From contig JAICMC010000006.1 in NCBI GenBank assembly GCA_025929465.1, positions 1 to 37,568 of the forward strand: 37,568 bases of DNA, given 5' to 3'. Origin of the DNA: Nostocoides sp. (lineage in GTDB: Bacteria; Actinomycetota; Actinomycetes; Actinomycetales; Dermatophilaceae). Each line of letters opens with the position of its first letter. Position 1 is the stretch's first letter. Made by a program: the position numbers and the translations under genes. This document shows positions 13,241 through 17,911 of the stretch, piece by piece. A model generated the notes under the pieces. It ran no database searches, was not told the DNA's origin, and saw only the letters and a program-made list of their open reading frames with translations.

Positions 13241-16174
13241 TCAGGCGGGGACGACGTTGACCAGCTTGGGCGCTCGGACGACCACGGCCCGGATGCCGTT
13301 GGTCGTGGCCGCCTGGATCTTGGGCAGTGCCAGGACGAGCTCGCGCAGGTCGTCCTCGGTGATGTCGCCGGACACCTCGACCCGGTCCCGCACCTTGCCC
13401 TGGATCTGGACCACGCAGGTCACCCGGTCCTCGACGAGCAGGGCCGGGTCGGCCACCGGGAACGGCTCGTGGGTCAGCGTCTCGGGGTGGCCCAGCCGGC
13501 TCCACAGCTCCTCGGCGATGTGCGGCGCCAGCGGCGCCAGCATGAGGACGAGCGGCTCGACCGCCGCGCGCGGAGCCGTCTGGAGCTTGGTGAGGGCGTT
13601 GTTCAGCTCGGTGAGCCGGGCGATGGCGGTGTTGAAGCCGAGCTCGGAGTAGTCCCGCGCGACCGCGTCGATCGTCCTGTGCAGCAGGCGTTCGGTGGCC
13701 GGATCCATGCCGGCGTCCGAGACGACGAGCGCGCCCGTCTCCTCGTCGACCACGTTTCGCCAGACCCGCTGGAGGAATCGTTGCGGCCCGACGACCGACC
13801 GGGTGTCCCAGGGCTTGGACTGCTCCAGCGGCCCCAGGCCCATCTCGTACAGGCGCAGCGTGTCGGCACCGTAGGCGGCATACATGTCGTCCGGGCTGAC
13901 CATGTTCTTCAGGGACTTGCCGATCTTGCCGAACTCGCGGGTGACCGGCTCGCCCAGCCAGGTGAAGGACGGCTCACCGTGCTCTCCGGGTCTCTCGACG
14001 ACCTCGGACGCCTCCACGTACGTGCCACGGGCATCGGTGAACGCGGGTGCCTGGATGTAGCCCTGGCCGAAGTACCTCCGGAACGGCTCCTCGCTGGAGA
14101 GGTGACCCAGGTCGAAGAGCACCTTGTGCCAGAACCGGGCATAGAGCAGGTGCAGGACGGCGTGCTCGACCCCGCCGACGTAGAGGTCGACGCCGCCGGG
14201 GTCCGTGACGCCGTCCGGCGCTCCCGCGACCGGCACGGCATACGGCCGCATCCAGTACGCCTCGTTGGCCGGGTCGACGAAGGCGCTGTCGTTGGCCGGG
14301 TCGAGGTAGCGAAGGTAGTACCAGCAGGACCCGGCCCAGTTGGGCATCGTGTTGGTCTCCCGGCGGTACGTTCGGACACCCCGGCCGTCGCCCAGGTCGA
14401 GATCCACGTCGACCCACTCGGTCAGCCGGCCGAGCGGCGGCTCCGGCTCGCTGCTGTCGTCCTCGGGGTCGAAGGTTTTCGGCGAGTAGTCGGCGACGTC
14501 GGGCAGCTCCAGCGGCAGCATGGACTCGGGCAGCGCGTGGCTCACGCCGTCGGCGTCGAAGACGATGGGGAACGGCTCGCCCCAGTAGCGCTGCCGGCTG
14601 AACAGCCAGTCCCGCAGCTTGTAGTTGATGGTGCCGTGGCCAAAACCCTTGTCCTGCAACCACTGGATGGTCTTGGCCTTGGCCTCGGCGATCGGCAGGC
14701 CGTTGAGCGACAGCTCGTCGTTGGCCGAGTTGACCGCCGGTCCGTCGCCCGTGAACGCCGTCGCCTCGTCGTGGCCCTCGGGGGGCTGGACGGTGCGGAC
14801 GATGGGCAGCCCGAACGTCGTCGCGAAGTCCCAGTCCCGCTCGTCCTGGCCCGGGACCGCCATGATCGCCCCGGTGCCGTAGCCCATCAGCACGTAGTCC
14901 GCGATGAACACCGGGATCGACTCGCCGCTGGTCGGGTTCGTCGCGAAGGCCCCGGTGAAGACGCCGGTCTTGTCCTTGCCCTCGGACTGCCGCTCGACGT
15001 CGCTCTTGCGCGAGGCTGACCGCCGGTATGCCGCGACCGCCTCGTGGGGAGTCTCGGCGCCGCCCGTCCACGAGTCCTCCGTCGTGAACTCAGGCCAACC
15101 GCCTTGCGGGACAATCGATTCCAGCAGCGGGTGCTCCGGAGCGAGCACCATGAAGGTGGCGCCGAAGAGGGTGTCCGGCCGGGTCGTGAAGACCTCGATC
15201 CGCTGCTTGTGGCCGACGACAGGAAAGCTGATCCGAGCGCCCTGGGACCGGCCGATCCAGTTGCGCTGCATGGTCTTGACCTTCTCCGGCCAGTCGACCC
15301 GGTCCAGGTCGTCGGCCAGCCGGTCGGCATACGCGGTGATCCGCATCTTCCACTGGCGCAGGCTCTTCTTGAAGACGGGGAAGTTGCCGCGCTCGGAGCG
15401 ACCCTCGTTGGTCACCTCCTCGTTGGACAGCACGGTGCCCAGGCCGGGGGCCCAGTTGACCGGCGCCTCGTCGGCGTACGCCAGGCGGTGCGAGTCGATG
15501 ATCCCCGCTTGCTCGACCGCGGTCAGCTCGGCCCACGACCGGACGACGCTGCCGTCCTCGCGGCCGACCATGACCCATCGGGACCCCCCGGCCTCGTACT
15601 CAGCGACGAGCTCGCTGATCGGGCGGGCCCTCCCGCGACCGCCGTCGGGGCGGACCGCCGACTCGTCGTACCAGGCGTTGTAGATCTGCAGGAAGATCCA
15701 CTGCGTCCACCTGTAGTAGGCGGGGTCGATGGTCTGCACCGCGCGGCGGTCGTCGTGGCCCAGACCGAGACGGCGCAGCTGCCGCGCCATGATGACGATG
15801 TTGTCCTCGGTCGTCTTGCGGGGGTGCTGCCCGGTCTGCACCGCATACTGCTCGGCCGGCAGACCGAACGCGTCGTAGCCCAGGCAGTGCAGGACGTTCT
15901 TGCCGAGCATCCGGTGGTAGCGGGCGAACACGTCGGTCGCGATGTAGCCGAGCGGGTGCCCCACGTGCAGCCCCGCGCCGCTGGGGTAGGGGAACATGTC
16001 CAGGACGAGCAGCTTGCCCTTGTCGCCGTATGCCGTCACACCGGCCGGGTCGGCCCAGGGGCCAGCGGGGTTGGGGGCGTGGAAGGTGCCCTCCTCCTCC
16101 CAGCGGTCCTGCCAGGCGACCTCGATCCGGTCGGCCAGCTCGGCGGTGTAGCGGTGCTGCGGCGTATCGGTCAT
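13241..16174 (-). CDS. leuS: Leucyl-tRNA synthetase
   Basis: Charges tRNA-Leu; a class I synthetase of 977 residues, usual length for the bacterial-type enzyme. The HIGH-like motif is HVGH (70-73, in [17 protein letters not shown]). The CP1 editing domain runs from about residue 260 to 480 ([22 protein letters not shown]), and the KMSKS-like motif is GKIGKSLKN near residue 752, a form common in actinobacteria. The C-terminal tRNA-binding domain ends in [16 protein letters not shown] 16174 lies 30 bases after a leader terminator. Five CGGCATAC copies lie inside the gene. Leader-peptide attenuation by leucine is likely (see 16204-16304). Confidence 0.98.
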
Positions 16175-16203: not shown

Positions 16204-16229
16204 AAAAAACCCCACGGGAGGCGTGGGGT
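16204..16229 (-). terminator. Rho-independent attenuator of leuS
   Basis: On the leuS strand ACCCCAC-(7 base loop)-GTGGGGT is followed directly by TTTTTT (16209-16204), the only classical T-tract terminator in the window. It lies 30 bases before the leuS ATG, so uncontrolled it would block leuS transcription. Confidence 0.88.
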
Positions 16230-16232
16230 CTG

Positions 16233-16266
16233 GCCGCGGTGATCGTCCGGGTGCGATCAGCGCGGC
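16233..16266 (-). promoter_or_regulatory. Leader RNA hairpin upstream of the leuS terminator
   Basis: 12-base arms (16255-16266 and 16233-16244, one mismatch) with a 10-base loop. The 5' arm overlaps the last codons and stop of the leader peptide. A ribosome stalled at the leucine codons would cover this arm and free the 3' arm, whose CCGCGG could pair with CCGTGG in the terminator's 3' side (six pairs, one G-U), a possible antiterminator. The alternative pairing is inference. Confidence 0.55.
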
Positions 16267-16292
16267 TCGGCAAGAAGCAGCGAGCGTGCCAT
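16257..16292 (-). CDS. leuS leader peptide MARSLLLAEPR
   Basis: Eleven codons and TGA, with three consecutive leucine codons CTG-CTT-CTT at 16280-16272. CTT is rare in this genome, which would sharpen stalling when charged tRNA-Leu is short. It is placed before a stable hairpin and the T-tract terminator in front of leuS. TAACCT lies six bases before the ATG, so the peptide is probably read from a leaderless mRNA. Together these are the parts of a ribosome-mediated attenuator. Confidence 0.75.
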   Translation of the reverse strand: MARSLLLAEPR

Positions 16293-16298
16293 GGGCCT

Positions 16299-16304
16299 AG
16301 GTTA
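16299..16304 (-). promoter_or_regulatory. -10 element of the leuS transcript
   Basis: TAACCT on the minus strand, six bases upstream of the leader-peptide ATG. I see no convincing -35. The rest of the gap to the protease gene (16305-16486) is G+C-rich and holds nothing else I can name. Confidence 0.6.
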
Positions 16305-16498: not shown

Positions 16499-17911
16499 AT
16501 GAGCATCTGCCAGATCGTCCCGCCCTACATCCTGCAGGCCATGGCTCGCTGCGAGGACCCCGTCCTCGTCGCCCACGCCCAGCGCTCCCTCCTGCACGGT
16601 GACCAGGTCCGAGCCGGGCGACCGGCGAGTACGGTCGCCTCGCACCCGAGGCCGGCGCACGCGGCACCGGGCGGGACCGCAGCCCCCGACCGCACGATCG
16701 GCGACGCCCAGGGCAAGCAGACCACTCCAGGCACGACGGTCCGGACCGAGGGCGCCCAGCCGACCGGTGACGCGGCCGTCGACGAGGCCTACGACGGTCT
16801 CGGCGACACCTGGACCTTCTACTCCTCGGTCTTCCAGCGGAGCTCCGTGGACGGCCAGGGCCTGCCGCTGCTGGCCACCGTGCACTACGGCGCGAACTAC
16901 GACAACGCGTTCTGGAACGGCGAGCAGATGGTCTTCGGCGACGGAGACGGCGTGGTGTTCGGCCGTTTCACCCACAGCGTCGACGTCATCGGCCACGAGC
17001 TGACGCACGGCGTGACCCAGTACACCGCGGGCCTGAGCTACCAGGACCAGTCCGGCGCCCTCAACGAGTCGGTCTCGGACGTGTTCGGCTCGCTCGTCAA
17101 GCAGTTCCGCCTCGGCCAGAGCGCGGCCGACGCCGACTGGCTGATCGGCGCCGACCTGCTCGAACCGTCGGTCAAGGGTCGCGCGCTGCGCGACATGCTG
17201 CACCCCGGCACCGCATACGACGACCCCCGCCTCGGCAAGGATCCGCAGCCGGCCGACATGGCCGGCTACGTCACCACCACCGACGACAACGGCGGCGTCC
17301 ACATCAACTCCGGGATCCCGAACCGGGCCTTCGCGCTCGCCGCGACGACGCTCGGCGGCAACGCCTGGCAGACCTGCGGGCCGGTCTGGTATGCCGTGCT
17401 GACCGGTGACCAGATCCGTGCGGACTGCGACTTCGCCACCTTCGCCCGGCTCACCGTCACGGCGGCCGGGGCCTCCGGCGTCGATCCGGCCGTCGCTCCT
17501 GCGGTGCAACAGGCTTGGGAGACCGTGGGGGTGCTGGCCGCCACCGGCACCACCAAACCACCCGCCGATGTCCACCCCAAGAGATCCCGCCGTCGGCACA
17601 GGAGGCGCAGCGGCGCGTCAACGCCCACCGGAGCCACGACGACCAGCACCATCACCGTGACCCGCAGCGGGGGTTTCGCCGGGCTGACCACCCAGGCGAC
17701 GGTCCGACTGGCTGACCTGTCCGACGACGACACGAACGCGTGGCAGGCGCTGCTCGCCTCGCCCAGGCTGGAGCAGCTGGCCGACGAGCGCAACCTCCCC
17801 GACGCGTACATCTACACGGTGCGTGCCGACGACGTCGACGTCACTGTGTCCGAGCCGCACCTGCCCCCGGACATCCACGGCCTCTTCGAGCGCACCCTGC
17901 GCTCTGACTGA
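16499..17911 (+). CDS. Protealysin-like M4 metalloprotease fused to a C-terminal emfourin-like domain
   Basis: A 470-residue zinc endopeptidase. The short N-terminus (CQIVPPYILQAMA, residues 4-16) matches the protealysin-type propeptide and there is no signal peptide, as in protealysin. The M4 catalytic region spans about 70-355, with HELTH (166-170), the third zinc ligand Glu190 in GALNESVSDVFG, and a late VHINSGIPNRAF that carries the conserved histidine. A basic linker (KRSRRRHRRR, about 365-374) leads to a C-terminal domain (about 381-470; TITVTRSGGFAGL, DAYIYTVRADDVDVTV) resembling emfourin, the protein inhibitor usually encoded next to protealysin. Fusion implies built-in inhibition or regulated activation. 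ATG 16499 is preceded by CAGGAT six bases upstream. It converges on the FAD oxidase. Confidence 0.88.
   Translation: MSICQIVPPYILQAMARCEDPVLVAHAQRSLLHGDQVRAGRPASTVASHPRPAHAAPGGTAAPDRTIGDAQGKQTTPGTTVRTEGAQPTGDAAVDEAYDGLGDTWTFYSSVFQRSSVDGQGLPLLATVHYGANYDNAFWNGEQMVFGDGDGVVFGRFTHSVDVIGHELTHGVTQYTAGLSYQDQSGALNESVSDVFGSLVKQFRLGQSAADADWLIGADLLEPSVKGRALRDMLHPGTAYDDPRLGKDPQPADMAGYVTTTDDNGGVHINSGIPNRAFALAATTLGGNAWQTCGPVWYAVLTGDQIRADCDFATFARLTVTAAGASGVDPAVAPAVQQAWETVGVLAATGTTKPPADVHPKRSRRRHRRRSGASTPTGATTTSTITVTRSGGFAGLTTQATVRLADLSDDDTNAWQALLASPRLEQLADERNLPDAYIYTVRADDVDVTVSEPHLPPDIHGLFERTLRSD

Follow-up and report, generated by a model that had tools for sequence, protein, structure and literature searches.

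Among the closest described systems to the locus reported here is the leuL2 leader of Streptomyces lividans TK24, in which a 12-residue peptide, MRAVRLLLSEPR, is followed by a hairpin and a U stretch before leuS and for which RNA-seq indicated leaderless transcription (accessible part of PMC8079986). Leaderless leuL1, metL and thrL are also named there. ‘Classical’ attenuators were predicted before leuS of S. coelicolor and S. avermitilis, and reported for some Streptomyces, in the accessible part of PMC1262725. The same part of that paper describes the LEU element of actinobacterial leuA, whose published model combines a pseudoknot with pairing of Leu codons to the leuA Shine-Dalgarno box. 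Because leuS leaders have already been published in Streptomyces, the finding presented below is not new in kind. A literature search, with subscription journals mostly uncovered, gave no further title pointing to leuS leaders.

The element lies on the minus strand of a 37,568-nucleotide stretch of Nostocoides sp. DNA (contig JAICMC010000006.1), which is referred to in its entirety as the window. It precedes leuS (13241..16174, minus strand), identified as leucine--tRNA ligase by TIGR00396 (847 bits versus a cut-off of 548). The upstream neighbor, an M4 (thermolysin-type) metallopeptidase with an emfourin domain (16499-17911, plus strand), is divergent, so the terminator discussed here is not that of a same-strand upstream gene. 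Reading toward leuS, the -10 promoter hexamer TAACCT (16299..16304) is found 6 nt upstream of the ATG of a predicted leaderless ORF (16257..16292) encoding the 11-residue peptide MARSLLLAEPR (ATGGCACGCTCGCTGCTTCTTGCCGAGCCGCGCTGA), to which relatives have similar leaders. Its candidate sensor codons, CTG-CTT-CTT (16272..16280), are marked as such by the CTT bias of the last Leu codon. The 5’ arm of a hairpin, GCCGCGCTGATCG (GCCGCG-C-TGATCG; 16254..16266), begins 5 nt past the last Leu codon and contains the stop codon, and the 3’ arm, CGATCACCGCGGC (CGATCA-C-CGCGGC; 16233..16245), ends 3 nt upstream of the terminator stem. Together they form 12 pairs around one C-C mismatch, across the leader stop codon. 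The terminator hairpin, ACCCCACG-CCTCC-CGTGGGGT (16209..16229; arms 16229-16222 and 16216-16209), runs into a T6 tract (16204..16209), the first T doubling as the last terminator-stem base as drawn, and the leuS ATG at 16174 lies 29 nt downstream of T6. TTTTTT is found only once in the window with both strands counted, and shuffles give 0.12. The first-pass annotation had named these same parts, namely the -10 hexamer, the leucine leader ORF, a 12-bp hairpin that overlaps the stop of this ORF and, before leuS, the window’s only terminator made of a hairpin plus T6, and each of them is present.

Compared with S. lividans leuL2, the window likewise has a leucine-rich peptide ORF with consecutive Leu codons directly before leuS and a hairpin and U-tract after the leader. 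The 6 nt between the -10 box and the ATG, a conserved spacing, fit the leaderless transcription described for leuL2. The window’s element is homologous to the Streptomyces one, with which it shares an alignment (A1, below), and it scores 72.2 bits (E 3.8e-17) with the covariance model R1, the window being among R1’s own sequences. It differs from leuL2 in coming from another family and in the sequence of its peptide, hairpin loop and terminator stem; how closely hairpin and terminator abut is not discussed for leuL2 in the accessible part of PMC8079986. The S. coelicolor and S. avermitilis candidates, as described in the accessible part of PMC1262725, share with the window a leader peptide, a second hairpin and a terminator before leuS, but they were labeled classical, and the overlap expected of that class was not found here. 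Control codons, a ribosome-gated hairpin and an intrinsic terminator are also found in the E. coli leuL, thrL, trpL, hisL, pheM and pheL attenuators, where the gated structure occupies the terminator 5’ arm, whereas in the leuS elements the hairpin ends beside the arm. Measured against the classical trp-type attenuator, the window has a leucine-codon-rich peptide and an intrinsic terminator before the gene, and folding found no antiterminator occupying the terminator 5’ arm on stalling. The leuA LEU element, as far as it is described in the accessible part of PMC1262725, resembles the leuS leaders in its Leu run and similar hairpin core, and weak R1 matches occur upstream of leuA and leuC. Leaders resembling the LEU element, each combining a Leu run and a CCGCG hairpin, were seen at L250 and L254 (leuC) and L255-L257 (leuA); no intrinsic terminator was seen in the five loci examined, unlike in the window.

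Scans of the window itself gave limited information. A generic terminator scan reported two sites, the other one with a poor tail, and since this number is no higher than in shuffles the scan alone proves nothing. The leader promoter was not reported by a generic sigma-70 scan of the window; its recognizable part is the -10 box only. The 91-nt leader RNA folds with -42.3 kcal/mol (z -3.64), and 1 of 200 shuffles was equally good. What tells decisively against chance is the comparison, in which R1 finds the same element in many other genomes.

For this comparison, 116 leuS upstream regions were examined, made up of 27 named loci (L004-L030) and sets of 30 and 59. Scanning them for leaders that have a -10 box turned up candidates in 62 of the 116 regions, 58 of them distinct; the four duplicates were dropped before leaders were counted. 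Forty-one leaders, including that of the window, were aligned (A1) and used to build R1. Among these 41 sequences, compensatory changes affect 5 of the 11 pairs in the hairpin and 4 of the 7 in the terminator. Pairing is preserved in 94.8% of alignment cells, compared to 91.1% in shuffles, and 37 cells changed on both sides, compared to 11.9 in shuffles and 2–8 in slid controls. The weakest covariation measure, the number of further pair types, was 19 versus 16.5 and was reached by 14 of 500 shuffles. The clearest covariation is a change from C-G to U-A in nine sequences, Micromonospora loci among them. All 41 aligned sequences keep the four basal hairpin pairs intact, with one G-U.

Within the class, R1 found the element or its relatives in 216 of 394 genomes and 88 of 138 genera (E up to 0.01), a count that overstates leuS elements because weak matches also occur at cimA, leuC and leuA, and that includes matches by construction because 30 of R1’s 41 sequences come from genomes of this sample. 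Matches were found in 39 of 39 genomes of one family (f26) and in 0 of 35 of another (f11), as counted by eye. Family f26 is probably Streptomycetaceae, since some of its leaders equal the S. lividans peptide; the leuL2 peptide is identical to the leaders of L141, L155 and L161. With E limited to 1e-4, a phylum sample gave matches in 17 of 296 genomes, of which one lies outside the class. Thirteen of 80 named loci matched at E up to 2.5e-6, all actinobacterial and 11 of them among R1’s own sequences. These were from Plantactinospora, Amycolatopsis, Micromonospora (3), Streptomyces, Actinophytocola, Hamadaea, Geodermatophilus, Catellatospora (2), Actinoallomurus and an unplaced Actinomycetes MAG. 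A fourteenth match, with an E of 0.77, was discarded as noise, and the two Nocardia loci, Janibacter (L004) and Frankia gave no R1 match. Within the window’s own family, six of eight genomes have a match and two have none. One genome (G209) carries two high-scoring elements, on contigs C30 and C5, with the C5 copy preceding leuS.

Five leuS leaders (L106, L126, L127, L134 and L140) have no terminator by the rule applied and were dropped before counting; in L127 the U-tract is present and the stem is mismatched. L106, L126 and L140 have mostly CTC Leu codons and a GC hairpin with no U-tract, and are possibly attenuators without an ordinary intrinsic terminator.

The genes behind the element were identified in two sets of loci. 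Among 20 regions picked from R1 matches, 18 lead into leuS, one into cimA and one into a contig end. Only one of the 18 leuS genes is of the window type; the other 17 encode a second type of LeuRS, which is ~35–51% identical to the window protein over separate stretches, as compared to 63–73% for the first type (eight compared). The second set, 30 loci from 40 genomes picked for weak or double matches, contained 15 leuS (eight window type, seven second type), 10 cimA, 2 leuC and 3 leuA. Family models confirm one cimA, two leuC, one leuA and two second-type leuS, and the others were assigned by tblastn with those proteins. Both LeuRS types carry the element, which indicates that it stayed in place across two divergent gene versions. 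At the cimA (citramalate synthase) loci (L207, L241, L242, L244-L248 and L251-L253) the same architecture is found with Ile/Val-rich leaders, such as MPSQVLIIVRRAG and VLHASIIIA, and the -10 box is often CANNNT.

The spacing between the parts is narrowly fixed. The last control codon is 4–5 nt from the hairpin arm in 51 of 53 window-type leuS elements, 2–5 nt in 23 second-type leuS elements and 1–5 nt in 11 cimA elements. The hairpin-terminator gap is -1 to 3 nt in 85 of 87 elements and -2 in the remaining two; uniform placement would give 17.8 of 87, with a maximum of 31 in 2000 draws. In the cimA elements the gap is 0 nt in 11 of 11. L195, L199 and repeats of elements counted elsewhere were left out of the 87. 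The helix search used for this geometry reached at most 3 nt into the terminator, and deep overlap was tested by folding instead. The hairpin loop ranges from 4 to 47 nt (misread L014 excluded). The stop codon lies anywhere from -2 to +23 nt relative to the arm start across the three gene groups, and the shortened peptides MARFLLLT, MARQLLLR and MTRRLLLP leave the position of the arm relative to the Leu codons unchanged. It is the RNA arm, at its set spacing behind the Leu codons, that is under selection, and not the end of the peptide. Sensing of the peptide sequence was considered and rejected, as C-terminal residues are variable or absent while the RNA arm stays. A TGTCCGG/TGCCCGG-like motif after the U-tract was seen in 31 of 85 elements (e.g., L145, L156 and L193) versus 4.3% in shuffles, a pattern picked after viewing the sequences and absent from the window.

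Because the earlier leader scan had required a -10 box, the promoter was counted in elements found independently of it. TANNNT is present 6–7 nt before an in-frame ATG or GTG in 51 of 51 such elements, against a background of 106 of 1715 start codons in the same regions with a box 4–9 nt upstream. No -35 consensus stands out in these promoter regions. The first-pass annotation had proposed looking for the Leu codons in the leuS upstream regions of relatives. They are conserved widely, although some close relatives are without the element, and 70 of 76 leuS leaders have CTT as their last Leu codon, whereas CTT makes up 0.6% of the 346 Leu codons counted in stretches of leuS coding sequence from ten loci. 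At the penultimate position, 58 of the 76 have CTC or CTT. In a complete genome of the same family (G048), the Leu anticodons among at least 40 of 45 tRNA genes are TAG, CAA, GAG and CAG, with one tRNA-Leu(GAG) and no AAG. With these anticodons and standard wobble rules, CTC and CTT would share tRNA-Leu(GAG).

For the folding tests, bases under the ribosome footprint were masked and the transcript was ended ahead of the terminator 3’ arm; occupancy of the terminator 5’ arm was then computed at footprint edges of 6, 9 and 12. Three elements with a misread leader or terminator (L006, L014 and L138) were excluded, leaving 84 leuS/cimA elements. All six E. coli controls sequester the terminator 5’ arm on stalling, with values of 0.62–1.00 at the control-run codons as against 0.02–0.23 at the stop; over the three footprint widths, medians were 0.74–1.00 on stalling and 0.02–0.32 at the stop codon. 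An isolated Leu codon of E. coli leuL gave a sequestration of 0.04. When the A site was occupied by the penultimate control codon, none of the 84 leuS/cimA elements exceeded 0.6 at edges 6 and 9, and four did so at edge 12. Among the 53 leuS elements, six exceeded 0.5 at some Leu codon and a single one, whose terminator was misread, rose above its stop state by more than 0.3. In seven trpL-like leaders of family f26, an overlapping helix between leader GGCGGCC and the terminator arm formed on stalling (0.60–0.90), but their stop values were also high (0.34–0.77, one above stalling), and they serve as a control for overlap and not for a switch. Equilibrium folding of the full leader, in which hairpin and terminator scarcely compete for bases and the terminator is near 1 in both states for most elements, was rejected as a switch test because it is not diagnostic; four of six E. 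coli controls fail to switch. The idea that the Leu codons pair with the terminator 3’ arm was also rejected. By eye such pairing does not seem to be retained in the window or in f26, and a stalled ribosome would cover the codons.

The hairpin itself responded to ribosome position in these calculations. With the penultimate control codon in the A site, gene-group medians for the formed hairpin were 0.98–0.99 at edge 6, 0.81–0.86 at edge 9 and 0.46–0.53 at edge 12; with the last control codon, they were 0.44–0.53 at edge 9 and 0.00–0.02 at edge 12. With the stop codon in the A site the median was 0.00. The calculated hairpin is off at the stop codon and, with the narrower footprints, on at the penultimate Leu codon. 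Since the ribosome gates the hairpin but the terminator arm is not occupied, the sensing half is attenuator-like and the output half is not base-pair exchange.

We think it probable, with some reserve, that the element is a ribosome-mediated, leucine-responsive transcription attenuator of leuS in which the hairpin acts as a steric block; the transcription start, the stalling, the direction and the steric block are steps that we infer. Transcription would start at or beside the leader ATG, and a ribosome would translate the leaderless ORF of 11 codons. With ample leucyl-tRNA, this ribosome would reach the stop codon and cover the 5’ arm, no hairpin would form and transcription would terminate before leuS. 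When leucyl-tRNA is short, the ribosome would stall on CTN-CTY-CTT, 4–5 nt before the arm, and the GC-rich hairpin would be able to form. The shortage may be sensed above all through the GAG isoacceptor that reads CTC and CTT. With the hairpin foot no more than ~3 nt from the terminator foot, the terminator stem could not enter the RNA polymerase exit channel, and read-through into leuS would follow. Points against this reading are the near-constant terminator in equilibrium folding, a weak test, the freer terminator 5’ arm on stalling, the partial or lost hairpin under a wide footprint, the close relatives that lack the element and the five leuS leaders in which no terminator was recognized. 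A phage P7 protein that plugs the exit channel and thereby causes antitermination is described in the accessible part of PMC6624301. A literature search by title recognized no precedent for an RNA hairpin blocking the exit channel.

Several other readings were weighed against the steric block. Synthetase genes are often under T-box control, which is the general reason to consider a T-box or other known leader RNA family at this locus. An Rfam search of the leader region gave no family at the gathering threshold, nor at E up to 1, and we find such an assignment scarcely credible. The attenuator published for Streptomyces leuS would, on stalling, form an antiterminator that shares bases with the terminator. 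It has in its favor the published label (accessible part of PMC1262725), the presence of a leader peptide and terminator, and the 1–2 nt that hairpin and terminator share, as parsed, in 10 of 87 elements. In the folding model, though, the label fails its key test, because the hairpin abuts the terminator and hardly ever sequesters its arm, unlike in the six E. coli controls. We therefore regard a classical attenuator as unlikely. The leucine attenuator proposed by the first-pass annotation holds up as to leader peptide, leaderless spacing, hairpin and terminator, all widely conserved, but its description as ‘complete’ in the classical sense does not, since no antiterminator occupying the terminator arm was found by folding.

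A switch of opposite polarity is also conceivable, in which the hairpin would hold its own 3’ arm off the terminator, so that stalling would lead to termination and plentiful leucine to read-through. Before the terminator 3’ arm is made, mean pairing of its 5’ arm is 0.169 in the stalled state versus 0.411 at the stop codon (n=84). In this model the arm is freer on stalling than at stop, contrary to what a classical attenuator shows, and taken by themselves these values would sooner suggest the opposite polarity. When terminators were swapped among elements, the stop value was unchanged (0.411 real versus 0.414 swapped), which suggests that no specific pairing is conserved, although the swap has limited power as the terminators are alike; the stalled value was slightly lower in the real set (0.169 versus 0.186) in 12 of 12 swaps. 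The physiology would also be backward for a synthetase. Because of the swap, a weak test, and the backward physiology, this reading is ranked below the steric block and seems to us fairly unlikely. It could also be that the hairpin merely paces RNA polymerase or the ribosome and that the terminator acts as a constant throttle unresponsive to leucine, as a codon substitution at S. coelicolor ilvB was without effect on regulation (accessible part of PMC1262725). However, the fixed spacing between Leu codons and hairpin, the CTT bias and the Ile/Val re-use at cimA point to amino-acid-specific sensing, and pacing alone is quite unlikely.

To the published accounts cited above, the present analysis adds the class-wide spread, the fixed geometry, the CTT bias, the re-use at cimA and the failed classical test. 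In the textbook account, attenuation selects one of two hairpins that exclude each other. The leuS element is a conserved leader-peptide switch whose two hairpins are able to coexist, yet across many actinobacterial families no more than ~3 nt separates them. This leaves two options, a mistaken ‘classical’ label together with steric antitermination by RNA alone, or a reversed polarity. Retention at two divergent LeuRS types, together with the re-tuned cimA form, suggests a movable regulatory cassette. Our tentative view, held at less than even confidence, is that the element represents a class-wide ribosome-mediated attenuator without base-pair exchange, in which a gated hairpin would act at the terminator foot inside the exit channel, and which is modular, kept across two LeuRS types and re-tuned to Ile/Val at cimA. 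If this is true, the leaderless leader would let the ribosome act from the first nucleotide.
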